Shown here in pieces: positions 4,759-53,466 of a stretch of 55,195 bases of DNA (within the stretch, counting starts at the first letter, position 1; each line of letters starts with the position of its first letter). A model generated the notes under the pieces. That model had not been told where the DNA came from and did not search any database. It saw only the letters and a program-made list of their open reading frames with translations. Source of the stretch: a virus; IMG/VR virus record IMGVR_UViG_3300017735_000009, positions 1 through 55,195 of that record; one strand, written 5' to 3'. Position numbers and translations under genes: made by a program.

Positions 4759-5511
4759 TTAACCCTGTGCTGGTAAGTAGTATTTGTATTCACTGATACC
4801 ACTATCAACTGTAATCTTTAATACACCTTGGTTCATGATTTGTAACGCAACGTTAGAACCATCACCAAGTCTAAGAATCTTTAGCACAACATCAAGTGGC
4901 CAATTAAATTCTCTTGTTAGTTCTCCACCAGCAACATCGGATACTTTAATTTTACTTCTGTCTCCGCCTTGATCACCAACGTGGAAGTATAATGCACCAT
5001 CTTCTACTTTGGGTGTAAACATACTTTCGTATTGTCCAAGAATGCTGTTAATAGCAGTTAAGTCTTTTAAGTTCTTCTGTGTAGGCACAATGCTTACTTC
5101 ATATTCTTCTGCACCAACATACTCGATGTTTCCTAATTGTGCATCAATAATACTTGCAGGCATAAACCTAAAGTTTGCTGTGTTACCATCTTCACCTTTC
5201 AGTGCAATTTCAGTAGGTGCATCTTCGCCGTTACGTTCTTCAGTAACAACTTCTACTGTGTCGTTTGCTTCACTAAACATCTTCAAGTAACCATCAAGTA
5301 CTGGAAGTCTATTCCATCCAATAGTTGCGTCAACAAACTCTGGTACTGGTGTTTTAGTGTTAGCAATAAAAATAACTACCTTGTCTGTATCAACTGATAC
5401 AATATCTGTTTGATCAATAGTGCCTGAAATCTTAAGCATCTCAAAGATACCTAAGTTATGTGTGTGCCTCAAAATGTCTTTGAGTGTGTCTTTAATAAAA
5501 TTATCTGCCAT
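4759..5511 (-). CDS. 45: DNA polymerase sliding clamp (T4 gp45-like)
   Basis: The 250-aa product has the length of T4-like gp45, which forms a trimeric ring that tethers DNA polymerase and, in T4, also activates late transcription. The N-terminus (FIKDTLKDILRHTHNLGIFE) and the repeated beta-alpha-beta pattern fit the phage clamp family, and its partners, the gp43 polymerase and a gp44 clamp loader, are in the same window. It starts 24 nt downstream of a consensus sigma70-type -10 box and is followed without a gap by the TGT-like gene. The clamp matters for the promoter findings, because nTAAATA late promoters depend on gp45 in T4. Confidence 0.85.
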   Translation of the reverse strand: MADNFIKDTLKDILRHTHNLGIFEMLKISGTIDQTDIVSVDTDKVVIFIANTKTPVPEFVDATIGWNRLPVLDGYLKMFSEANDTVEVVTEERNGEDAPTEIALKGEDGNTANFRFMPASIIDAQLGNIEYVGAEEYEVSIVPTQKNLKDLTAINSILGQYESMFTPKVEDGALYFHVGDQGGDRSKIKVSDVAGGELTREFNWPLDVVLKILRLGDGSNVALQIMNQGVLKITVDSGISEYKYYLPAQG

Positions 5512-5534
5512 GGGTGTTCTCCTGTAAGTGTTGT

Positions 5535-5562
5535 ATTATACTATAGTTTAGTTTATTGTCAA
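5535..5562 (-). promoter_or_regulatory. Sigma70-type promoter of the clamp operon
   Basis: Minus-strand TTGACA (5557-5562), 16-bp spacer, TATAAT (5535-5540). The predicted start near 5528 gives a 17-nt leader to the clamp ATG, and the transcript should run through the TGT-like and MazG-like genes. Confidence 0.85.
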
Positions 5563-5583
5563 GTGTTTTATTCATATATCTAT

Positions 5584-5841
5584 TTAGATCTTTTGTTGTG
5601 TATCGCCGTATTTTTTTCGATTTCTGTCATCGAAATATAATCTGACGTATGTTTTTCTTGTGATAGCAAACACTGTAAAGATCGATGTCATTATAACACT
5701 GGTCCAAAATGTACCTACTTGCCACACTGTTATGCAAAGATACACTAACAAAAAGTTTAAAGGTACGTTAACAATAAATGCTAACCCTGTATCACTAAGT
5801 GCTTCTTTCAATGCTATTTTAAATTTCTGTTGGTATGTCAT
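5584..5841 (-). CDS. Small membrane protein with two TM segments (85 aa)
   Basis: Two hydrophobic helices (about residues 18-40 and 45-60) are flanked by charged ends, and the C-terminus is strongly basic and polar (YFDDRNRKKYGDTQQ). It follows the DNA polymerase gene by 8 nt, with AGGATAGAC before its ATG, so it is co-transcribed with polymerase. The layout resembles small DUF2061-type membrane proteins. Family assignment is uncertain. Confidence 0.65.
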   Translation of the reverse strand: MTYQQKFKIALKEALSDTGLAFIVNVPLNFLLVYLCITVWQVGTFWTSVIMTSIFTVFAITRKTYVRLYFDDRNRKKYGDTQQKI

Positions 5842-5849
5842 GTCTATCC

Positions 5850-8546
5850 TTAGAACTTAAAGAAGTTCTGAACTATTTTATTATCATTGGCACGTTTTAG
5901 ATCCCAACCCATTGCTCCAAGTACATTTTGTATTTTCTTGTTGAGCACACTTTCTTCCATTGCCTCTTCATCGAATGGCAAGTCTTTAAACCATTGAGGC
6001 AATCTTAATTCATCTGTTGGGTATGCAACACTGGTGTAACCCATTGGATTATCTTTTAGTTTACACACAATAACTTTCTGCCCATCCATAATTTCCATAC
6101 TGTAAGCATCGCTGTTACCAACTTTAAGTGTATTCCAGTTGATACTTGCCCTAACATGACCTGGCACCATAACAGTTTCTTTCTTCTTAACACCATCCAA
6201 TCTACGTAGAGTTGGATTCTTCATCAGCGAGTTATGTGCTTCACGTTTTTGTTTAGCCATCTTCTCACCATATGTGGTTAAGTTGTTTACACGTTTAGGC
6301 ATACCTTTCATCCAAGGTTCCATTGCCCTAAAGTCATCTTTAAACAGTTGTATCTTTTTAATTACATCTGCTTCTGGCATACCATCAAGTGCATTGTCTA
6401 ATACTTCTTCAAGGAAGTCCTGTACAAACTCAGGCGTATCACTTCGCTTGATATCCATGCCCATGATCTTTAGTTTACCACCTTCGGGTTGATAGCCTTC
6501 GATGTCTAAACACTTAATAGCATATCGCTTCTTAGTAATAAACAAACCTGAACGACCAACTACTTCTCTGCCAGCCTTCATAACTGAGCCAACTTGCTTA
6601 GGCACATTGAACTCATTTAATAGCATGTCTGGGAACGTGTCACTAACAGTGTCTGATACATGATCATACAATGCAATAGCACTTTCCATGTCTAACTCTT
6701 TATCTTTGGGTAATGCTGGCGTGGCACTAAAATACACAGAGTCAGTGTCACCGTATATCATACAGTCTCCTGTGTGATCATACTTGCCTGTTAACAGCTC
6801 ATTAGTTTTTGCACCCATGTGCTTAGTAATAGCTCTGCCTGTTAGTGTAGTACTCTGTCCTATGCGTTTGTCAAAGAATCTACAATGTGGATTAAGTATC
6901 GCACCATACAAACTGTTCAAGTTAATCTTCTTAACCAACTGTCGCTTATCCCAAAACATTATTTCAGCATCTGTTGTGGCTTCTTTTTTCTTTGCTTGTA
7001 GTTCTTTACGTTCAGCATACCAACGTTCAAGTAGTCCTGGCACTGTGCCCTGCACATCTGTTTTAAAGATAGTACCGTTAGCACTGATGTTCCAAGGTTG
7101 ATCGCTGTTGAATATTAAGTTGTACACATCGCCACCAGTGACATCATGTTCGCCACCATCTTCCATATCTAAAATCATCTTGTGCTTGGTGTCTCTGCCT
7201 ATAACCATTTCGTACTCATTAGTACCAAACTTGCCTAACCAAGCATCAGCAAAACTCTTCTTCTCTAATACAACTTTGTCGTTGATCTCTTGATCAGTAT
7301 AGTCGGGCCTAAGTTGTCCTACAATAGTTTCAGGTGCCATGTTGAGACATCTAATCACACTTGGATATAGACTGTTCAAGTCCATTGAGCCAATCCATTC
7401 GTGAAATCCTACTTTAGGGAATGCCACATAGGCACCAGCCGCCTGTGTATTGTCCTCACGTTTTCTAACTCTGTCAGGCACAACCATGTTACGTCTATGA
7501 CACTCATTGATAATTGCTTGTTCTGTTGTTGCCACAGCACCCATTGTGGTTGGCAATAGCACTGTGTTATCATGTGCAATAGTGTTAGCCAAGTCGATGA
7601 ACTGTAACTTCTGATCTAATTTGTGTAGCAACAATGTATCTTGAATGTTGTATTCTAAGAACAGTTCAAAATCGTGATTGTAAAGTCTATCAAGCGAACC
7701 TTCGTATGCTACTTTCTTTTCACCTACTTCCATCTCACCAATGTAGTCCAGCCTGTAACTGTGTCGCTCTTCATAGTTGTATTTGCGATACAGTTGCATA
7801 TAGTCTAAGTGTACACGACCTATAAGGTCAAATGTCTCACGTTCATTGCCGAATGCTTCATATGTTCTTTGCTTAGGCATCTGATCCCACAAACACAATC
7901 TACGTAATTCATTCTTGCCTAATACTTTAACAATCCTATTCACAGTGTAAGGAATATCATAACCCTCACTGTTCCAACCTGATAAAATATCAGCATCATC
8001 AATGAGATCGAGGAATGTGTTCAGTAGTTCTTTTTCTGTCTTAAACAGCATAACCTCAGGCATCTTACTTGCTATGCTTTGTGCTTGTCCCCAACTAATT
8101 GTTCTGGGTGGTACTGCTAAACATACCATGGCATCCATCCACTGTAAATATACAGCAACAGATGTTATAGGCATAAATGCATCTTCGGGAGAACTGTAAC
8201 CACGTTGTGGATCAAAGTCAACCTCGATATCGAAGAATGCTGTTTGCAGTTTGGGAATGTCAGCATTGAGATAATGCTTTGCTAAACTTTTGTTTAAAGG
8301 TTTGATGTCGCTCTCATACTTTTGTTGAGTGCTGTGTATTGCTACGTTCTTGCGAAACTCTTTTACATTACGACATCGGATTTCTTGTACTGGGTCGCCG
8401 TGGATAGTTCTATGGCTACCACGTGGGTCTTGGATATAGAAGTTGTACTCTGGCTTATGTTCAACAAGCAATCTCTTGCCGTTTACTCTTTCGACTACCT
8501 GAATAGTATCCTTCTTTTTATCGTAGAAGGCATCTACGTAACTCAT
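5850..8546 (-). CDS. 43: Family B DNA polymerase (T4 gp43-like)
   Basis: Replicative polymerase with 3'-5' proofreading, 898 aa, the same size as T4 gp43. Exonuclease motifs: FFDIEVD (about 104-110), SGWNSEGYDIPY (about 189-200) and YNIQDT (about 299-304). Polymerase motifs follow in order: DLNSLYPS (about 389-396), KKINLNSLYG (mid-500s) and YGDTDSVYF (about 600). All catalytic acidic residues expected for both sites are present. The extreme C-terminus (IVQNFFKF) looks like a clamp-binding peptide. There is no split or intein. The ATG has TTGGAG upstream. It is followed by a small membrane gene. Confidence 0.95.
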   Translation of the reverse strand: MSYVDAFYDKKKDTIQVVERVNGKRLLVEHKPEYNFYIQDPRGSHRTIHGDPVQEIRCRNVKEFRKNVAIHSTQQKYESDIKPLNKSLAKHYLNADIPKLQTAFFDIEVDFDPQRGYSSPEDAFMPITSVAVYLQWMDAMVCLAVPPRTISWGQAQSIASKMPEVMLFKTEKELLNTFLDLIDDADILSGWNSEGYDIPYTVNRIVKVLGKNELRRLCLWDQMPKQRTYEAFGNERETFDLIGRVHLDYMQLYRKYNYEERHSYRLDYIGEMEVGEKKVAYEGSLDRLYNHDFELFLEYNIQDTLLLHKLDQKLQFIDLANTIAHDNTVLLPTTMGAVATTEQAIINECHRRNMVVPDRVRKREDNTQAAGAYVAFPKVGFHEWIGSMDLNSLYPSVIRCLNMAPETIVGQLRPDYTDQEINDKVVLEKKSFADAWLGKFGTNEYEMVIGRDTKHKMILDMEDGGEHDVTGGDVYNLIFNSDQPWNISANGTIFKTDVQGTVPGLLERWYAERKELQAKKKEATTDAEIMFWDKRQLVKKINLNSLYGAILNPHCRFFDKRIGQSTTLTGRAITKHMGAKTNELLTGKYDHTGDCMIYGDTDSVYFSATPALPKDKELDMESAIALYDHVSDTVSDTFPDMLLNEFNVPKQVGSVMKAGREVVGRSGLFITKKRYAIKCLDIEGYQPEGGKLKIMGMDIKRSDTPEFVQDFLEEVLDNALDGMPEADVIKKIQLFKDDFRAMEPWMKGMPKRVNNLTTYGEKMAKQKREAHNSLMKNPTLRRLDGVKKKETVMVPGHVRASINWNTLKVGNSDAYSMEIMDGQKVIVCKLKDNPMGYTSVAYPTDELRLPQWFKDLPFDEEAMEESVLNKKIQNVLGAMGWDLKRANDNKIVQNFFKF

Positions 8547-10883: not shown

Positions 10884-10959
10884 TGGCTCCCTGACGTGGG
10901 CTCGAACCACGGACCTAATGATTAACAGTCATTTGCTCTACCAACTGAGCTATCAGGGA
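10884..10959 (-). tRNA. tRNA-Asn (GTT)
   Basis: A 76-nt cloverleaf with acceptor TCCCTGA/TCAGGGA, D-arm TAGCTCAGTTGG, anticodon loop CTGTTAA (anticodon GTT), T-loop TTCGAGC and an encoded CCA. All four stems pair. The first of a five-tRNA group interleaved with small genes. Confidence 0.93.
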
Positions 10960-10965
10960 AAAACT

Positions 10966-11039
10966 TGGCAACCCAGCAAGGAATCGAACCTCAATCTACG
11001 GTTTTGGAGACCGCCGTAATACCATTATACCACTGAGCT
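10966..11039 (-). tRNA. tRNA-Trp (CCA)
   Basis: A 74-nt tRNA with anticodon loop CTCCAAA (anticodon CCA) and encoded CCA. The acceptor is AGCTCAG pairing with CTGGGTT (two wobbles), and the D-arm is short, GTA/TAC around TAATGGTAT, as in other phage and organellar Trp tRNAs. An upstream sequence that looks like a normal AGCTCAG D-arm is in fact the acceptor strand. Confidence 0.85.
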
Positions 11040-11047
11040 ATTTTGAA

Positions 11048-11359
11048 TTATTGTTTAGGCATGCCTTCTTGAATGAACACACCGATTGTTCCAATCTGTC
11101 CGTCAGTAAGGCCTTTTGCAGTTGGCCACATCAACATACTTTGCGGTCCAATAGTTTCACCTTTTTTGTATGCCATCAGTTTAGCGATAATATCGTCTGC
11201 TGATTGGTTGTTCAGTTGAGGTCCTAAGTTGCCTTGCCCTTGGGCTCCATGACATGCTTGGCATCCTGTCCATGCTTGTCGAATGTCAGCAAAGCGATCT
11301 TCTGCTGTTGCTGTTGCTGTTAGTCCTAAGAGAACTGCTGTTGCTATTAACTTTTTCAT
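11048..11359 (-). CDS. c-type cytochrome, periplasmic, class I
   Basis: Small electron carrier with covalent haem. The first ~20 residues (MKKLIATAVLLGLTATATA in the version started here) form a Sec signal peptide ending at an Ala-x-Ala site. The haem motif CQACH follows about 12 residues later, and a candidate axial Met lies in SMLMWP. The mature part is about 80 aa, typical of cytochrome c553/c5-type class I proteins. I chose the second ATG (11359) over 11365, because AGGA is then 6-7 nt upstream and MKK is a normal signal start. It would need the host Ccm system to attach haem. It lies among tRNA genes and has no obvious own promoter. Phage-encoded c-type cytochromes are uncommon. Confidence 0.85.
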   Translation of the reverse strand: MKKLIATAVLLGLTATATAEDRFADIRQAWTGCQACHGAQGQGNLGPQLNNQSADDIIAKLMAYKKGETIGPQSMLMWPTAKGLTDGQIGTIGVFIQEGMPKQ

Positions 11360-11378
11360 ATCCATATCCTAATTAAAT

Positions 11379-11465
11379 TGGTACCCGGAGACGGACTTGA
11401 ACCGTCATGCCATTGCTGGCGAGGGATTTTAAGTCCCTTGTGTCTACCAATTCCACCACCCGGGC
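11379..11465 (-). tRNA. tRNA-Leu (TAA)
   Basis: An 87-nt class II tRNA with acceptor GCCCGGG/TCCGGGT, D-arm TGGTGGAATTGGTAGACAC, anticodon loop CTTAAAA (anticodon TAA), a variable arm (CGCCAGCAATGGCAT), T-loop TTCAAGT and encoded CCA. Confidence 0.93.
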
Positions 11466-11483
11466 ATCACATACTATTTACTC

Positions 11484-11672
11484 TTACGCACTCCAAGAGT
11501 TAGTTATTTCGGCCTCACGTCTAAGTTCGTAGGCTTTTTCCTTTTCAACTGTTTGTCGCAGGATACTAATAACTCCTTCCTGTACAAGTAGTCGAAGAGT
11601 TTCTTTGTCTAAGTCAAGTTCTACAGTTGCAGAACCATCCTCATTTTCATTTATGTTTGTTACTGTTAACAT
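11484..11672 (-). CDS. Small hypothetical protein (62 aa)
   Basis: The product starts MLTVTNINENEDGSATVELD, then has DKETLRLLVQEGVISILRQ and a basic-acidic C-terminal helix. The central helix resembles a short regulatory or oligomerisation helix. AAGGAAAG precedes the ATG. Small phage proteins of this type, with an amphipathic helix after a beta hairpin, are common and uncharacterised. It sits between the Leu and CAT tRNA genes. Confidence 0.6.
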   Translation of the reverse strand: MLTVTNINENEDGSATVELDLDKETLRLLVQEGVISILRQTVEKEKAYELRREAEITNSWSA

Positions 11673-11688
11673 TTACTTTCCTTAAAAA

Positions 11689-11765
11689 TGGTGGGCCCAG
11701 AAGGACTTGAACCTTCGACCTGCCGATTATGAGTCGGATGCTCTGACCAACTGAGCTATGGGCCC
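11689..11765 (-). tRNA. tRNA with CAT anticodon (Ile2 or elongator Met)
   Basis: A 77-nt tRNA with perfect acceptor GGGCCCA/TGGGCCC, anticodon loop CTCATAA and encoded CCA. The anticodon stem-loop CCGACTCATAATCGG and the T-arm GGTTCAAGTCC look more like bacterial tRNA-Ile2 (whose C34 becomes lysidine) than elongator Met. T4 also carries an Ile2. The identity cannot be settled by the anticodon. Confidence 0.85.
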
Positions 11766-11772
11766 AAACACT

Positions 11773-11943
11773 TTACAATACGCCTCGCTTCACTAACTCA
11801 TTACGTATCTTTTGTTTCTTTTTTGGTGCAGTTGCTGAACTATTCAATGCTTCCTGCAGTACTTCTAAAGGAGTTGACTGCATGTAATAGTTTTGCATCT
11901 TGCCATTACGTTCCTTAGTTGACTCTTTAAATTTAGTTGGCAT
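11773..11943 (-). CDS. Small basic hypothetical protein (56 aa)
   Basis: I start it at 11943 (MPTKFKESTKERNGKMQNYY), where GGAGATACAAG precedes the ATG inside the end of speD, rather than at the longer frame start at 11982. It is a basic protein with a C-terminal KKKQKIRNELVKRGVL segment. This pattern (TKFK near the start, KQK-RNEL-KRG near the end) is one I associate with a small conserved protein of marine T4-like phages of unknown function. A nucleic-acid-binding role is a guess from charge. Confidence 0.65.
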   Translation of the reverse strand: MPTKFKESTKERNGKMQNYYMQSTPLEVLQEALNSSATAPKKKQKIRNELVKRGVL

Positions 11944-12334
11944 CTTGTATCTCCAACTCTTTGAGTCCATGTTCTCTGTCAAGGAACTTCCATTCTACCT
12001 TTGAAGGCTCGAACTGCTGTAGCTCATCAAAGATGTCTTGCTTGTTAAACGGTCCACATGTGTATACATCTAACTGTATCAATGCAGGGTTAGGTTCGTC
12101 CCATACATGAATTGCAATGTGGCTTGTCTCAATAATCACAACACCTGTTACACCACAGTTACCCGGTACGTCTACGTACGATGCATGTGGACCATCGCAT
12201 ATTGTCATACCAATCTTCTCTACTAAATGCCCTAACCAATCCTTAACCCATTCTGCTTCTTTGGGTGGACTGTTTACTTCTGCCCGAATTATCAAATGCT
12301 TATGTTCGGGTACTACTTTACCAACTTCTGCCAT
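11933..12334 (-). CDS. speD: AdoMet decarboxylase-like protein (SpeD family)
   Basis: SpeD makes decarboxylated AdoMet for spermidine synthesis and matures by self-cleavage to a pyruvoyl group. The 133-aa product matches the bacterial class 1B size. The core IIETSHIAIHVWDE (about 66-79) aligns with the usual SESH-SIHTWPE processing site, with the serine (Ser71) and the two histidines kept but Thr at the position before Ser. LDVYTCG (Cys93) is also present. Related phage SpeD-like proteins are reported to include neofunctionalised amino-acid decarboxylases, so the substrate is open. AGAGGTACACAA precedes the ATG. A MetK gene is found at the right end of the window. Confidence 0.8.
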   Translation of the reverse strand: MAEVGKVVPEHKHLIIRAEVNSPPKEAEWVKDWLGHLVEKIGMTICDGPHASYVDVPGNCGVTGVVIIETSHIAIHVWDEPNPALIQLDVYTCGPFNKQDIFDELQQFEPSKVEWKFLDREHGLKELEIQDAN

Positions 12335-12357
12335 TTGTGTACCTCTTTATTATTGTT

Positions 12358-12434
12358 TGGCCTCCCGAGCAGGAGTCGAACCTGCAACCTACGGCTTAGA
12401 AGGCCGTTGCTCTATCCAATTGAGCTATCGGGAG
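12358..12434 (-). tRNA. tRNA-Arg (TCT)
   Basis: A 77-nt tRNA with acceptor CTCCCGA/TCGGGAG, anticodon stem-loop CGGCCTTCTAAGCCG (anticodon TCT), T-loop TTCGACT and encoded CCA. It decodes AGA, a codon favoured by AT-rich phage genes. Confidence 0.93.
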
Positions 12435-15065: not shown

Positions 15066-15401
15066 ATGACATTTGTAGTTGGTAGCCCATGTGTTGGCTG
15101 TAAAGACACAGCCTGCGTTACAGTATGCCCAGTTGATTGTTTCTATGAAACACCTAACATGCTTGTAATCAATCCCGATGAATGCATTGACTGTGGTCTT
15201 TGTGAACCTGAATGTCCAACTGATGCTATATGGGCCGACGATGATTTACCTGCAGAACAAATACCCTTTCTTGCTATAAACGAAAACCTATCCAATGATG
15301 AACGTTTTAATCAAGAACCAATAGTAGATGACAAAGAAGAAATGGCATCTGAATCACCCTATACTGTCGAAGAAGCAATCGCAGTAGCCCTCGCAGAATA
15401 A
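15066..15401 (+). CDS. fdxA: 7Fe ([3Fe-4S][4Fe-4S]) ferredoxin
   Basis: Low-potential electron carrier. Nine Cys at 9, 12, 17, 21, 25, 40, 43, 46 and 50 match, each one residue shifted, the nine Cys positions of Azotobacter ferredoxin I (8, 11, 16, 20, 24, 39, 42, 45, 49). So both clusters and the two spare Cys are conserved. The segments CPVDCFYE and DECIDC-LCEPECP are family signatures. The C-terminal 60 residues are acidic and shorter than in bacterial FdxA. AGAAGGTAAT precedes the ATG. It follows an oxygenase-like gene by 8 nt on a late transcript. It could feed the oxygenase or the radical SAM enzymes. Partners are inferred. Confidence 0.9.
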
Positions 15402-36415: not shown

Positions 36416-37098
36416 GAGTAATACAGGGTGGCGCCATAGAACGCCAAAGAAATACTAAAGTAAGTATAACACCAAGGAACTTTAATCAAGACGAGTTACT
36501 TGGCTTATTAGAAGATCGAAATATCAATATAGTGTTTGCAGTAGGTCCAGCAGGAACGGGTAAAACACTAATCTCAACACTCGCAGGAATCAAAGCATTA
36601 AAGGAAAATGACATAGATAAATTTGTTGTCACACGTCCTGCTGTGAGCGTAGATGAGCAACACGGTTTCTTACCAGGCACGTTACAGGAAAAGATGGCGC
36701 CATGGACGAGACCTATCTTTGATGTGTTCGAGGAGTATTATTCCCCTGAGCAAATAGAATATATGTTGAACGATAATAAAGTAGAGATAGCACCTCTGGC
36801 TTATATGCGTGGACGTACATTTAAAAACAGTTTCATTATTGCAGACGAAATGCAGAATGCAACAGACAGTCAAATGAAAATGCTGTTAACAAGAATAGGT
36901 GACAATAGTAAAATTGTTGTTACTGGCGACTTGGCACAGCATGACAGAGGTTTCGAGAGCAACGGATTAAAGTTGTTCATTGAAAAATTAATGAGATCAA
37001 AGAGTGATCGTATTAAACTGGTACAGTTTAATCAAGGAGATATAGCAAGGCATCCAGTGGTCGATGAAGTGCTGAATATCTACAACGACGAAATATAA
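36346..37098 (+). CDS. phoH: PhoH-like ATPase/RNA helicase-like protein
   Basis: A 250-aa single-domain PhoH with Walker A GPAGTGKT (67-74), ARPAVSVDEQHGFLPG-like conserved segment (about 97-112) and Walker B FIIADEMQN (163-171). An N-terminal basic stretch (MSRKARKQKCNKYRKQ) could bind RNA. PhoH-like genes are common in marine phages and their function is not settled. AAAGGAG precedes the ATG. The last 19 nt overlap the end of the convergent radical SAM gene. Confidence 0.9.
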   Translation: MSRKARKQKCNKYRKQQNGDNYLRVIQGGAIERQRNTKVSITPRNFNQDELLGLLEDRNINIVFAVGPAGTGKTLISTLAGIKALKENDIDKFVVTRPAVSVDEQHGFLPGTLQEKMAPWTRPIFDVFEEYYSPEQIEYMLNDNKVEIAPLAYMRGRTFKNSFIIADEMQNATDSQMKMLLTRIGDNSKIVVTGDLAQHDRGFESNGLKLFIEKLMRSKSDRIKLVQFNQGDIARHPVVDEVLNIYNDEI

Positions 37099-38606
37099 TC
37101 TTGTTTTAGTTTTATGTATCGAGTAACATGATCGTTGCTCGATGCATAGAATTTATCACTGTAGTAGAATTTTTTACCTTGCTTCAGTACTTGTTCTTTA
37201 AACTGTTGCTTGCCTTCTACACTCAACAAATCATTCAAACCTAAGGCTCTACGACTCACAGCCTCCCAACTATCTAACATTGTGATACCTTTCTTGAACA
37301 CGTTAGATGACAGCCTTCTTGAATATATTGTTGCCTGTTTGAAATTCATAGTACCGTGTTCCCAATCGAGTATATGTTCATTACTGCCAGGCTTTTTAGG
37401 TTTTATAGTTATACCAAACTTCTCAGGGTTTTTGTTTATCTCTGCATAGTTTAATTCATTATCCTCTACTGCATACACACCCAGTGGTTGTATAATAGCA
37501 GAGTCTAACAGTTTTCTTTCAGTTAGTTCTTCCCACACATCTAATACATGTTCAATGGGTTCTGGTGGTAGGCCAACTATGTAGCCACTGCATATCCACC
37601 AATGAGGGTACTTCTCACGTAATTCTTCCAAGTAGTTCAAACTACTCACACGTTCTATACCCTTGCGTATGCGTTTACTTGCTTCTCTGTGCAACGTTTC
37701 TATGCCAAAGTAATGTCCATGGAAGCCACAGCGGTCAAGCATCTCTGCTTGGTGAGGTCTTGCTTTAAGTAAATCAAATCGTGTGTATCCAATTATCTTT
37801 GGCTGATAGTCTAATTGTGTAACAGCACTCAGCAAGTTTTCTATCTTAACATCGTCCTCGTTGAATGTGTCATCCACACAACTAAAATGCTGTATGCCAT
37901 ATTTGTTTTTTGCTGTTTCAAAATAATGCTGTAAATCTTTTGGGTCAGCATCGTGTGTGTTTTTAGCATTGCGGAATTCAAAGTTACAAAATGTACAATT
38001 AAACTTACAACCTAATCTTGTTTCAAAACTCACTATATCATTTTCTGTTAGACAGTAATCATCATACAGTATTGGCACTATGGGTTTCTCGACTATGTCT
38101 GTACCAGTCCTGTGATACACTGTGCAATCGCCTTTCATAGTAATAGTATTCAACAAAGGTTCATGTGGAGTATCGAGCCATCGTGTAAACAAGTGTAGAC
38201 TTCTGCCTCTGAACACTGCATCAGGCACTATGTCACAGTTTGGGTCGAGAACAGCAATAGGTCCTCCTGTGAAGTATTTACTGTCGGGGAAGTGTTGTTT
38301 AAATTTATTAACAAAGTCGTACAACTTGTTGCCTTTGCTTATTAAGAATTTATTAAACAATGATGTGCTTAACAACAAAGGGTTTGTAACGTTCTGCGAT
38401 TCGCACCATGTCACAATGTTTTCTAACAGTGTGTCGTTATCCCAGTCATAAAAATAGTCAAACAGTGTTGCAGAGTAATCTCTTTTTACTATTTCATGAT
38501 GGATTGCCATTGGTGCTAATGGCCTAATTACTTGAGCTCTCTCACCACTCATATTAGAGGAGTTGGTGCAGTCGATTATAATCGCACCGTCAAGATATGG
38601 ATTCAT
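37080..38606 (-). CDS. Radical SAM enzyme with B12-binding-like N-terminus (508 aa)
   Basis: Radical SAM enzymes use a [4Fe-4S] cluster to make a 5'-deoxyadenosyl radical. The motif CKFNCTFC (Cys190, Cys194, Cys197) is exact. Residues 1-165 are alpha/beta with no Cys-rich motif, similar in position to the cobalamin-binding domain of B12-dependent members, but I do not see the B12 His motif clearly. After the motif, FSCVDDTFN, YFGIETLHREASKRIRKG and a C-terminal helical domain follow. About the same layout as the 480-aa paralogue next door. Reaction unknown. It shares the late transcript with the 107-aa gene. Confidence 0.85.
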   Translation of the reverse strand: MNPYLDGAIIIDCTNSSNMSGERAQVIRPLAPMAIHHEIVKRDYSATLFDYFYDWDNDTLLENIVTWCESQNVTNPLLLSTSLFNKFLISKGNKLYDFVNKFKQHFPDSKYFTGGPIAVLDPNCDIVPDAVFRGRSLHLFTRWLDTPHEPLLNTITMKGDCTVYHRTGTDIVEKPIVPILYDDYCLTENDIVSFETRLGCKFNCTFCNFEFRNAKNTHDADPKDLQHYFETAKNKYGIQHFSCVDDTFNEDDVKIENLLSAVTQLDYQPKIIGYTRFDLLKARPHQAEMLDRCGFHGHYFGIETLHREASKRIRKGIERVSSLNYLEELREKYPHWWICSGYIVGLPPEPIEHVLDVWEELTERKLLDSAIIQPLGVYAVEDNELNYAEINKNPEKFGITIKPKKPGSNEHILDWEHGTMNFKQATIYSRRLSSNVFKKGITMLDSWEAVSRRALGLNDLLSVEGKQQFKEQVLKQGKKFYYSDKFYASSNDHVTRYIKLKQDYISSL

Positions 38607-38934: not shown

Positions 38935-38942
38935 TATTTATC
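38935..38942 (-). promoter_or_regulatory. T4-like late promoter box (GATAAATA), 5 nt before ATG
   Basis: GATAAATA, GTATT, then the ATG at 38929. The predicted +1 is the A of ATG. It should transcribe the 107-aa gene and the 508-aa radical SAM gene. Confidence 0.75.
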
Positions 38943-40380
38943 CAATTAAGTAGGCACTTTTCTGCTTAATGTACTTTTGAACTAATTTAGTACGTCTTAC
39001 GTTGTGTGCTGGTAAAGCCATGTTATATTCAGCATGACTAAGTCCTGGTAAGCAACTTTTAATACTTTGGAACTCGTGACCAGTGTATCTGCTTTGTAAG
39101 TTCTTATCATAGTAATCATCGAGCCAACTTGTAATACGGCCTGCCTCGGTAGACGATGTCCAATCATTAGCCCATGATTGAGAACTGTAACCTAACTCCG
39201 GCCAATTCCTGTCTGTGCCTATAACTTCGTATCCAAACTTTTTAGGATTTAAATCAATGTCACTCATTATCTCAGTGTTATCAAGACCTTGATAAAGCCT
39301 TAATGTATTACATCCTGCACTGGTTAACAGTTGTTCGTTAACAACTTTTTCAGCATAGTATCTAATATCTTTCTCACAGTCGCCAGTTAAGCCTATAATA
39401 AAATTACCATATGTAAATATGTCTGGGTGCTCATCACGAATCTTTGCCAGTGTATCCATGTTCTTTTCTGGTTTACCACCCTTACGTATTAACTTGGTTA
39501 CGTTGGTAGAAAAACTTTCTATGCCAAAGAACATGCTTTTAATATTAGCACGTTTTATTAGTTCCATTTGATGCGGCTGTCCACCAAGTACATCTAATCT
39601 AATAAATCCCATTAGGTCAGGCTCAAATGTTAAATCCTCACATACATCACCTAATAGTTCTAACTTATCGTCAATCTCATTCATGGTGTCGTCTGCAAGA
39701 TAAAAATGCTTGATGCCAAACTTATCATATGCTGTTTGCATAGTTTCTGTTAACAATTCTTTGTCTACGAATACACTGTTCTTATTACCTCGATAGTCGT
39801 AGCCACAAAAACTGCAATTAAACTTACAGCCAAGTGCCATCTCTAATGACATTGTTTCTCTGGGACTCCAAAAGTCACCGTCTTTAGGAACAACACTGAC
39901 AGCAGTTTCACGTATGATTTTGTCTGGGTTTTTGTATGTTAGTGGGTTAGTTGAATGAACGTATTGATCTAAGTCTTTACCTTCAAGCCAATCTGTGAAT
40001 ATGTTGGTACATCTACCCATGAATGCTAAATCAACCCAACTGCTATCACCTACAGTAACACGATACCCACCTAACATTACTTTAACAGGGCAGTGTTTTT
40101 TTATTTTAACAACAAGTTCTTTGAATGCTTCTGTGCTACTACCATCGATACTGCCACTTAGACTAATCCAACACGTTGGATCATCACCAAAGAAACTCAC
40201 AATACTTTCTATGAGTAGTTCTTCAGGCCAATCTTTCCAATAGTCAATAGCCTCAGCATCTACACCGTGGTTGTTGGCTATGTTTACAATATGGTGAACA
40301 CCTGCTGGCCTATTATTATTTAATAATGTACCTACACGTGTAGGCTTGGCACCTAAATCTGACATTACAATTAATTTCAT
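38938..40380 (-). CDS. Radical SAM enzyme (480 aa), paralogue of the neighbour
   Basis: CKFNCSFC (Cys185, Cys189, Cys192) is an exact radical SAM motif. The N-terminal half and the downstream FYLADDTMNEID, FFGIESFSTNVTKLIRKGGK segments align in order with the 508-aa protein, so the two come from duplication or share an ancestor. AATAAATA ends 5 nt before the ATG. There is no ribosome-binding site. Reaction unknown. It may modify a nucleotide, a glycan or a peptide. Confidence 0.85.
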   Translation of the reverse strand: MKLIVMSDLGAKPTRVGTLLNNNRPAGVHHIVNIANNHGVDAEAIDYWKDWPEELLIESIVSFFGDDPTCWISLSGSIDGSSTEAFKELVVKIKKHCPVKVMLGGYRVTVGDSSWVDLAFMGRCTNIFTDWLEGKDLDQYVHSTNPLTYKNPDKIIRETAVSVVPKDGDFWSPRETMSLEMALGCKFNCSFCGYDYRGNKNSVFVDKELLTETMQTAYDKFGIKHFYLADDTMNEIDDKLELLGDVCEDLTFEPDLMGFIRLDVLGGQPHQMELIKRANIKSMFFGIESFSTNVTKLIRKGGKPEKNMDTLAKIRDEHPDIFTYGNFIIGLTGDCEKDIRYYAEKVVNEQLLTSAGCNTLRLYQGLDNTEIMSDIDLNPKKFGYEVIGTDRNWPELGYSSQSWANDWTSSTEAGRITSWLDDYYDKNLQSRYTGHEFQSIKSCLPGLSHAEYNMALPAHNVRRTKLVQKYIKQKSAYLIG

Positions 40381-51422: not shown

Positions 51423-52367
51423 TTAACTCCTTATATAGATATCTAATTTATCCAAGTCCTCATATCTCGATGAGTCCATGGGGTGATCAAGATTGAAAGG
51501 ATTTGATCGTTTGTAAGTAGTACTCCTCACTCGACTAATAACAGCCTCGACTATCTCTCTATCTCTCTCGGTTAATGAATCTAAATCAATTCCTCCTCTC
51601 ATAATTTTGAAAAGTGCAAGATCAAATTCAAGGTAACTAAAACCAAATTGGTCCTCGTCACCGTTTGCAATACCCAAACCGTCTGTGGGTTTTGCTTCCA
51701 CAATACTTTGCGGAACACCAAGAAGCTCTGCTAATGCAGGAACTTCCCAGCTCTTGGTCAATGCTTGGATAGGTGAGACGTCACCAACGTCACCATGCAA
51801 TGTCCAAAAACCTGCCGCAAGTTCTGAGAAGTTATCTGTACTTGCCACACAACCTCCAAGTTTACTTGCTAAATTATAAAGTGTAATCATTCTAAGTCTT
51901 GCTCGAATGTTACCCTTTCTAATGTTTTGGTCTTTCATGTTGTTATCAACAAGTTCTTTGTTAAAGTCAACATCAATGTTTTTATAAAATTCTACTAATT
52001 GATCAAATGCAGATGTGAGGTCGATCACTTCTTTGTTGATCTCCAGTGCCTCACATGCCTCTTCCCCTCTTGCCGTCTCGGTTGGATCTTGATGTATTGG
52101 CATAACAACGCCTGTTACATTCCACCCTGCCTCTTTAAATAATGCGGCTGTTACGGCACTATCAATGCCACCACTCATACCAATAGTGATATTTTCAATG
52201 TTATGCTTTATGCGATACTCTGCAAGACCTGTTACAAGTCTACTGCGTAATACTGATATATCGTTGTGATACAAGCCAAATGCTATTTGTTCGTCAAGCA
52301 TTGTGCTAAACCAGTCGCTTAATTCTGGATTCCTATTTAGTTTTAGGATATTGTCTTTTAAGTTCAT
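51423..52367 (-). CDS. nadE: NH3-dependent NAD+ synthetase
   Basis: Forms NAD+ from deamido-NAD, ATP and ammonia. The ATP-binding GMSGGIDSAV (65-70) is intact. DPTETARGEEA and VASTDNFSELAAGFWTLHGD and LTKSWEVPALAELLG follow the NadE order. At 314 aa it is longer than the usual ~275 and lacks a glutaminase domain. CATAAATA ends 5 nt before the ATG, so it is probably a leaderless late gene. NAD+ resynthesis can counter NAD-depleting host defences; this use is inferred. Confidence 0.92.
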   Translation of the reverse strand: MNLKDNILKLNRNPELSDWFSTMLDEQIAFGLYHNDISVLRSRLVTGLAEYRIKHNIENITIGMSGGIDSAVTAALFKEAGWNVTGVVMPIHQDPTETARGEEACEALEINKEVIDLTSAFDQLVEFYKNIDVDFNKELVDNNMKDQNIRKGNIRARLRMITLYNLASKLGGCVASTDNFSELAAGFWTLHGDVGDVSPIQALTKSWEVPALAELLGVPQSIVEAKPTDGLGIANGDEDQFGFSYLEFDLALFKIMRGGIDLDSLTERDREIVEAVISRVRSTTYKRSNPFNLDHPMDSSRYEDLDKLDIYIRS

Positions 52368-52413: not shown

Positions 52414-53466
52414 TTAGTCGCCTACGGTTAGGTTCTCGTAAACCGTATTATACTGCCTGCCGTTGTTTACTTGCACAAATGTAGTGCGTTTACTAAGTTC
52501 TTTTAAACTCTTTGCGCCAACATAAGTACAAGTACTGCGGAGACCGCCAAGTATGTCTCCAACAATGGGTCCAACTGGACCTTTGTAAGGAACCTGTACG
52601 ACTCTGCCTTCACTTGCTCTATATTCTTTTGTACCACCATGTTGCTCCTGTGCTTCGTTTGAACTCATGCCGTAGAATTTAACCACGCCACCTTCTATTT
52701 CGCCGCCACCTTCATCTGTGCCTGCTAACATTCCACCCAGCATCACAAAGTCTGCTCCGGCTCCAAATGCTTTTGCTACGTCTCCCGAACTACTACATCC
52801 GCCATCGGCAATGATGTGTCCGCCAAGACCATGAGCGGCATCGGCACACTCAATGACTGCTGATAATTGTGGATAACCCACACCAGTTTTAATACGAGTA
52901 GTGCAAACACTACCAGGGCCAATGCCCACTTTAACGATATCCGCTCCACGTAAAATTAACTCCTCTGTGATATCAGGCGTTACAACGTTGCCTGCAATTA
53001 TTGTTGTAGTTGGAAACTTTTCTCTGAACAAACTTACTGCTTCGAGAAAACGTTCTGAGTATCCATTAGCAACATCAATACACAGATAATCTATTGCTCT
53101 ACTTAGTTTTAATGTTTTTTCTGTTCTTTCTATTTCGTCAGCAGTAATACCTGTGCTGACTGCAATGGTTCTACATAAATCATCTTTGTGTTGATTATTA
53201 TTTAACCAATCCCAAACCTCTGCTGAACTGTAATCCTTTTTAAGCACTGTGAATAGTCCGTGCTTTGCTAAAGGCAGTGCCATTGATGTAGTGCCAACGC
53301 CATCCATGTTAGCGGCCATAATAGGCACACCACTGTATGTTTTACCGCTGTTCCTAAATGTATATGATCGATTGAGGTCTACTTCTTTACGGCTACCCAT
53401 TTCACTACGTTTAGGTCTAAACAGCACATCACTGTAGTCTAATTTAATATCTCGTTCAATCCTCAC
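52414..53466 (-). CDS. guaC: GMP reductase
   Basis: Converts GMP to IMP with NADPH. Length 350 aa (E. coli GuaC 347) and close similarity throughout. Catalytic Cys188 is in GPGSVCTTR, with [20 protein letters not shown] and [27 protein letters not shown] after it. The start is GTG ([14 protein letters not shown]), overlapping the previous gene. It redirects guanine to adenine nucleotides, or recycles GMP for dNTP synthesis. Late promoter of nadE lies downstream of it. It is in an operon from about 54.4 kb. Confidence 0.93.

Follow-up and report, generated by a model that had tools for sequence, protein, structure and literature searches.

A conserved cytochrome c gene family of uncultured phages as a candidate source of periplasmic electron carriers

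Results

A cytochrome c gene between two phage tRNAs

The window (the whole stretch of DNA analysed here, 55,195 bp) is a linear IMG/VR virus record and a metagenomic fragment, not a complete genome. It encodes a family B DNA polymerase, a T4-type clamp loader, and a head protease. Many other IMG/VR contigs, the longest of them reaching 340 kb, encode polymerases with 65-79% identity to this one, and the best identity to an annotated jumbo phage is about 47%. Five tRNAs are spread across 10884-12434, and a cytochrome c gene (11048-11359, minus strand) sits between two of them, with tRNA-Leu (taa; 11379-11465, minus strand) as its upstream and tRNA-Trp (cca; 10966-11039, minus strand) as its downstream neighbour, confirming the location inside a phage tRNA cluster given in a preliminary description of this DNA. 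The tRNA-Leu finds its best counterparts in gammaproteobacterial genomes (up to 89% over the full length; 324 of 369 matched), as compared to a best full-length match of 83% in alphaproteobacterial genomes (209 of 385 matched), a weak hint that the host may belong to the gammaproteobacteria. The tRNA cluster also holds an S-adenosylmethionine decarboxylase gene (SpeD-like; 11933-12334, minus strand) with 23 relatives in IMG/VR. Elsewhere in the window are a bacterial-type ferredoxin with 4Fe-4S (Fer4) motifs, which is a second electron carrier in this phage and lies on the opposite strand to the cytochrome (15066-15401, plus strand), an NAD synthase gene adjoining an IMPDH/GMP-reductase-type gene (51423-52367 and 52414-53466, minus strand), and two closely spaced radical-SAM protein genes that have no PHROG match (37080-38606 and 38938-40380, minus strand). 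A 65% relative of the IMPDH/GMP-reductase-type gene is found next but one to the cytochrome on contigs L121 and L122.

The cytochrome reading frame is open across 11048-11365 (minus strand) and would encode 105 aa if the first ATG (11365) were used. A Shine-Dalgarno-like AGGA (11367-11370, minus strand) precedes the second ATG, at 11359, by 7 nt and the first by only 1 nt, and 11359 is therefore the most likely start codon, giving a 103-aa product whose limits coincide exactly with those drawn in the preliminary description. The product opens with a predicted Sec signal peptide, MKKLIATAVLLGLTATATA (11303-11359, minus strand), judged by eye from the translation, as was the predicted cleavage between MKKLIATAVLLGLTATATA and ED. 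The mature part of 84 aa begins with EDRFADIRQAWTGCQACHGAQG, ends with SMLMWPTAKGLTDGQIGTIGVFIQEGMPKQ, and contains one CxxCH and one Met-Trp. The former is the haem c attachment motif CQACH (11249-11263, minus strand), and when the codons of the reading frame were shuffled 2000 times, no shuffle contained a CxxCH. The latter (11126-11131, minus strand) comprises the predicted axial ligand, M79 in the 105-aa numbering, and the Trp that follows it; this Met aligns with that of c554/c552 structures, and with that of 2zzs and 8yts. The predicted signal peptide, CQACH, plausible axial Met, and roughly 80-residue mature domain that had been noted from the sequence are thus all present.

The window protein scores 26.8 bits with Pfam PF00034 (Cytochrom_C), above the curated cut-off (21.3), and phage homologues score 32.8-46.1 bits, and a PDB sequence search with the window protein returned cytochromes c546/556 (8yts, 1.7e-10), c552, and c554. 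An AlphaFold2 model built on 36 family members (pLDDT 84.7, pTM 0.71) has the class I cytochrome c fold, with an rmsd of 1.8 over 80 residues to its best match, 8yts (Z 12.5); Vibrio c554 (11.7), Pseudomonas c552 (11.4), and Desulfovibrio c553 (11.0) also rank at or near the top. These matches, 2zzs and 1cno among them, are all monohaem carriers and rank over enzyme domains such as that of cd1 nitrite reductase. Judged by its motifs, Pfam match, and modelled fold, the window protein belongs with the small carriers among the class I cytochromes c, and its proposed identity as an exported member of this class is well supported.

The gene belongs to a family spread among uncultured phages

No viral relative was returned when IMG/VR was scanned with the window protein as a single sequence. 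The family opened only through an alignment of relatives reached by way of the DNA polymerase: among the polymerase relatives of the window phage, five contigs carry a cytochrome homologue, and a profile made from these identified 485 candidate stretches in IMG/VR. The best 80 of the 485 were retrieved and, together with the window's own, yielded 53 distinct proteins in which C35, A37, C38, H39, G40, P49, M79, and W80 are invariant. Because the IMG/VR scan patterns themselves contained CACH or MW, the invariance of these motifs is in part an ascertainment effect; the five polymerase-derived contigs are free of that bias and show the same CxACH and Met-Trp residues. The 80 retrieved loci, and the relatives reached independently by way of the polymerase, have the cytochrome amid phage replication genes. 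In several lineages it is surrounded by other genes of the phage, as expected of an auxiliary metabolic gene (AMG).

The cultured phages (50,697 records) gave no match to four queries, including one bacterial c552-like sequence, no PHROG family was matched by the window protein or by the two homologues tested, and a scan of genome contigs recovered only distant cellular c-type cytochromes. The earlier remark that no common phage cytochrome c family was known therefore stands for cultured phages and PHROGs, but not for uncultured phages, where the gene is common. Searches of the open-access literature found neither a monohaem cytochrome c carrier nor a pseudoazurin reported from phages. The family is a real and conserved one, and it has apparently gone undescribed to date.

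Three N-terminal forms occur, namely a cleavable signal (n = 24), a membrane anchor (n = 26), and a lipobox (n = 2), and in all three the haem domain is predicted to be periplasmic. The 26 anchored cytochromes (L112, L111, L176, L191, and 22 more) have a conserved second segment, C-x-G-x-C-Y, ahead of the haem domain. A separate set of exported proteins of 412-456 aa was seen on contigs L120 (592-1827 and 1790-3157, minus strand), likewise G014, and L059 (528-1811, plus strand). These combine an N-terminal CxxCH domain, which Pfam matches only below cut-off, with a long His-rich C-terminal part, and presumably resemble copper monooxygenase-type proteins.

Phylogeny and selection argue against a host or chimeric origin

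A tree was built over 85 columns, with sampling by motif, from the phage cytochromes and cellular c-type cytochromes from samples of two proteobacterial classes; its 8yts row is an approximate sequence on which nothing rests. The phage cytochromes form one clade (99/97) apart from the sampled cellular sequences. Gammaproteobacterial c552-type proteins are among the nearest to this clade, with the deep order unsure given few columns and some long branches. The Trp after the axial Met is present in the phage sequences and in 0 of 57 sampled cellular rows.

These results bear on whether the gene is phage property at all. The window is a metagenomic fragment, c-type cytochromes are typical of bacteria, and the gene adjoins tRNAs, which are a common insertion site, all of which would fit host DNA, a chimeric assembly, or a non-functional passenger gene. 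Against this stand the separate clade, the occurrence of the cytochrome between phage genes on dozens of independent contigs, the absence of any base-composition step at the window gene, and dN/dS values well under 1 (0.10-0.48 in close pairs of phage cytochromes), indicative of purifying selection on intact copies in related phages. A host or chimeric origin of the window cytochrome was rejected, and this explanation as a whole, the passenger gene included, is extremely improbable. Neither of the two refuting conditions named in the preliminary description, a host-DNA chimera or absence from all related phages with disruption in some, holds; phage ownership, as first proposed, is well supported.

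The gene has also changed hands among phages. Whereas the window polymerase is 73-74% identical to those of L044 and L052 and about 25% identical to that of L145, the window cytochrome is 65% identical to those of the T4-like contigs L143 and L145 and 34-36% identical to those of L052 and L044. This conflict indicates that the cytochrome gene moved between phage lineages. Its distribution is patchy, which weighs against the carrier reading set out in the Discussion: most polB-related records of the window phage, though these are fragments, have no cytochrome.

Cytochrome genes accompany glutaredoxin, ribonucleotide reductase, and replication genes

Homologues also occur in a second, T4-like clade whose polymerase is about 25% identical to that of the window and whose nearest cultured relative is a Synechococcus cyanophage (45%). 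The gene order here is SbcD-SbcC-PolB-(96 aa)-glutaredoxin-cytochrome. Loci of this clade with at least 2 kb downstream of the polymerase were sampled by polymerase, not by cytochrome, with glutaredoxin found using HMMs. The cytochrome is present in 30 of these 51 loci, immediately following glutaredoxin in 27, and is missing from that site in the other 21. Another group has the order nrdA-nrdB-cytochrome-glutaredoxin, and a third has peroxiredoxin-cytochrome-gp47-gp46, with reading frames that overlap or abut. The placement of the cytochrome is operon-like, and the glutaredoxin, ribonucleotide reductase (RNR), and replication neighbours suggest that the cytochrome may be expressed with the replication module. 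As glutaredoxin, peroxiredoxin, and RNR are cytoplasmic, gene order alone names no respiratory partner. On one phage contig (L142), an isocitrate lyase-family gene (5280-6521, plus strand) lies a short way upstream of the cytochrome.

Cytochrome and pseudoazurin share a genomic slot

In phages with a window-like polymerase, the order glutaredoxin-pseudoazurin-cytochrome-monothiol glutaredoxin was found, and in L211, a T4-like contig of the other clade, a pseudoazurin and cytochrome pair likewise follows glutaredoxin. The pseudoazurin identity is secure (PDB pseudoazurin E 8.6e-25; PF00127 49.8 bits); its nearest PHROG is PHROG 515 (PetE plastocyanin), and it also matches cyanophage plastocyanins in INPHARED. 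Monothiol glutaredoxin (GrxD) is present in 35 loci, 23 of which also have the upstream glutaredoxin. In the slot between Grx and GrxD, 3 of these 23 loci hold both carriers, 8 hold the cytochrome alone, 2 hold pseudoazurin alone, and 10 hold neither. The pseudoazurin-only records had no cytochrome elsewhere on the fragment, the cytochrome-only record G055 had no PF00127 match, and no pseudoazurin was seen in the window itself. PF00127 matches in G045, G047, and G048 were rejected as carriers, being large, probably structural proteins with cupredoxin-like repeats. Large phage proteins from probable structural genes, with cupredoxin-like repeats and His/Cys motifs, were also observed in L203-L206.

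That a haem carrier and a copper carrier should replace each other at a single site is expected if their tasks are equivalent, as is the case for cytochrome c6 and plastocyanin in cyanobacteria. The interchange with pseudoazurin, which recalls that pair and also cyanophage plastocyanin, is the best functional clue available and suggests that the phage may supply the host respiratory chain with an electron carrier in the periplasm; the company of pseudoazurin and glutaredoxin genes makes an electron-carrier role more likely.

The main rival explanation is that the cytochrome, and pseudoazurin with it, passes electrons to a reductase or peroxidase in the periplasm (cytochrome c peroxidase, nitrite reductase, or N2O reductase) for protection from oxidative stress or for anaerobic respiration, instead of supporting the oxidase chain. 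Pseudoazurin is a classical electron source for denitrification enzymes, small cytochromes of the c552 type can serve peroxidase in this way, and, in the neighbourhoods described above, peroxiredoxin directly adjoins the cytochrome in one group and glutaredoxins do so in others. However, the neighbourhoods read showed no such reductase or peroxidase gene next to the cytochrome, and the spread across many contigs does not point to a narrow denitrifier niche. This explanation is judged rather unlikely.

A second possibility is that the cytochrome redirects or short-circuits host electron flow instead of supporting respiration, whether to take over the host, in redox signalling, or as a counter-defence. 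The Met-Trp peculiar to the phage proteins could reflect an altered potential or partner, which counts against a plain carrier; together with the long divergence from cellular relatives, it leaves room for such a change, and the three anchoring modes could mean different targeting. The conserved carrier-type core speaks against redirection, as does the ordinary pseudoazurin that can occupy its slot; both suggest a normal shuttle. Redirection is accordingly considered quite improbable.

Discussion

The reading that we favour, and regard as probably correct, is that the phage cytochrome is an exported carrier that supports host respiration during replication. The phage would make a monohaem class I cytochrome c of the bacterial c552/c553/c554 type, which the host Sec system would export and to which host cytochrome c maturation (Ccm) would attach haem. 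In infected cells, it would then act as a small periplasmic electron carrier from cytochrome bc1, or another periplasmic donor, to terminal oxidases, supporting the host's own carriers or making up for them once infection stops their synthesis, and proton-motive force and ATP would be kept up while the phage replicates. Here we infer the steps after translation, as well as expression, haem loading, redox partners, benefit, and host.

More tentatively, and at somewhat less than even odds in our estimation, phages of heterotrophic marine bacteria may carry an interchangeable periplasmic cassette of cytochrome c (iron) and/or pseudoazurin (copper) within a glutaredoxin/RNR/replication module, chosen by host or metal supply and paralleling cyanophage plastocyanin. 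If so, direct reinforcement of respiration would be a widespread strategy of non-cyanobacterial phages. To our knowledge, cyanophages are the only phages well known to carry electron-transport AMGs. If marine phages of the T4-like and jumbo-like kinds commonly encode a conserved cytochrome c and exchange it for pseudoazurin, the supply of respiratory carriers would extend to phages of heterotrophs. The presence of the gene in many uncultured, mostly T4-like marine phages, with a copper protein of similar function replacing or accompanying it in some, suggests that these viruses top up host respiration while replicating. The gene offers a concrete marker for effects of infection on community respiration, and its soluble product is suited to expression and assay.

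Phage electron carriers as such are already known, the example being cyanophage plastocyanin (PMC10452541); what appears to be new here is a cytochrome c family as a putative phage electron-carrier AMG. Cyanophage PetE (PHROG 515) resembles the present protein in being a small, exported, one-electron carrier encoded by T4-like phages. It is, however, a copper protein serving cyanobacterial hosts, whereas the present cytochrome, of which none was found in cultured phages, is haem-based. Pseudoazurin (PDB 3tu6, 1bqk) stands beside or replaces the cytochrome in related phages, but has a blue copper fold unrelated to it. An earlier phage AMG from a c-type cytochrome family, SoxD, was described from two metagenome datasets and encodes a sulfane dehydrogenase subunit, with two contigs missing one or both cytochrome c motifs (PMC8190135); the family described here differs as a putative free monohaem carrier with intact motifs. 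Reads assigned to cbb3-type oxidase subunit I in Indian Ocean viromes (PMC3474794) likewise underlie a claim of viral involvement in the cytochrome c chain of the host, but that is a read-level annotation of an integral oxidase subunit, as opposed to a soluble carrier on phage contigs. The protein itself resembles the bacterial monohaem cytochromes c552/c553/c554 (1cno, 1dvh, 2zzs) and c546/556 (8yts), with which it shares CxxCH, a single Met ligand position, a mature domain of about 80 residues, a cleavable signal peptide, and, in the model, the fold (Z 11-12.5, rmsd 1.7-1.9). Identity to these proteins is only 22-30%, the phage family, unlike the sampled cellular relatives, has a Trp after the axial Met, and it is encoded within phage replication modules.
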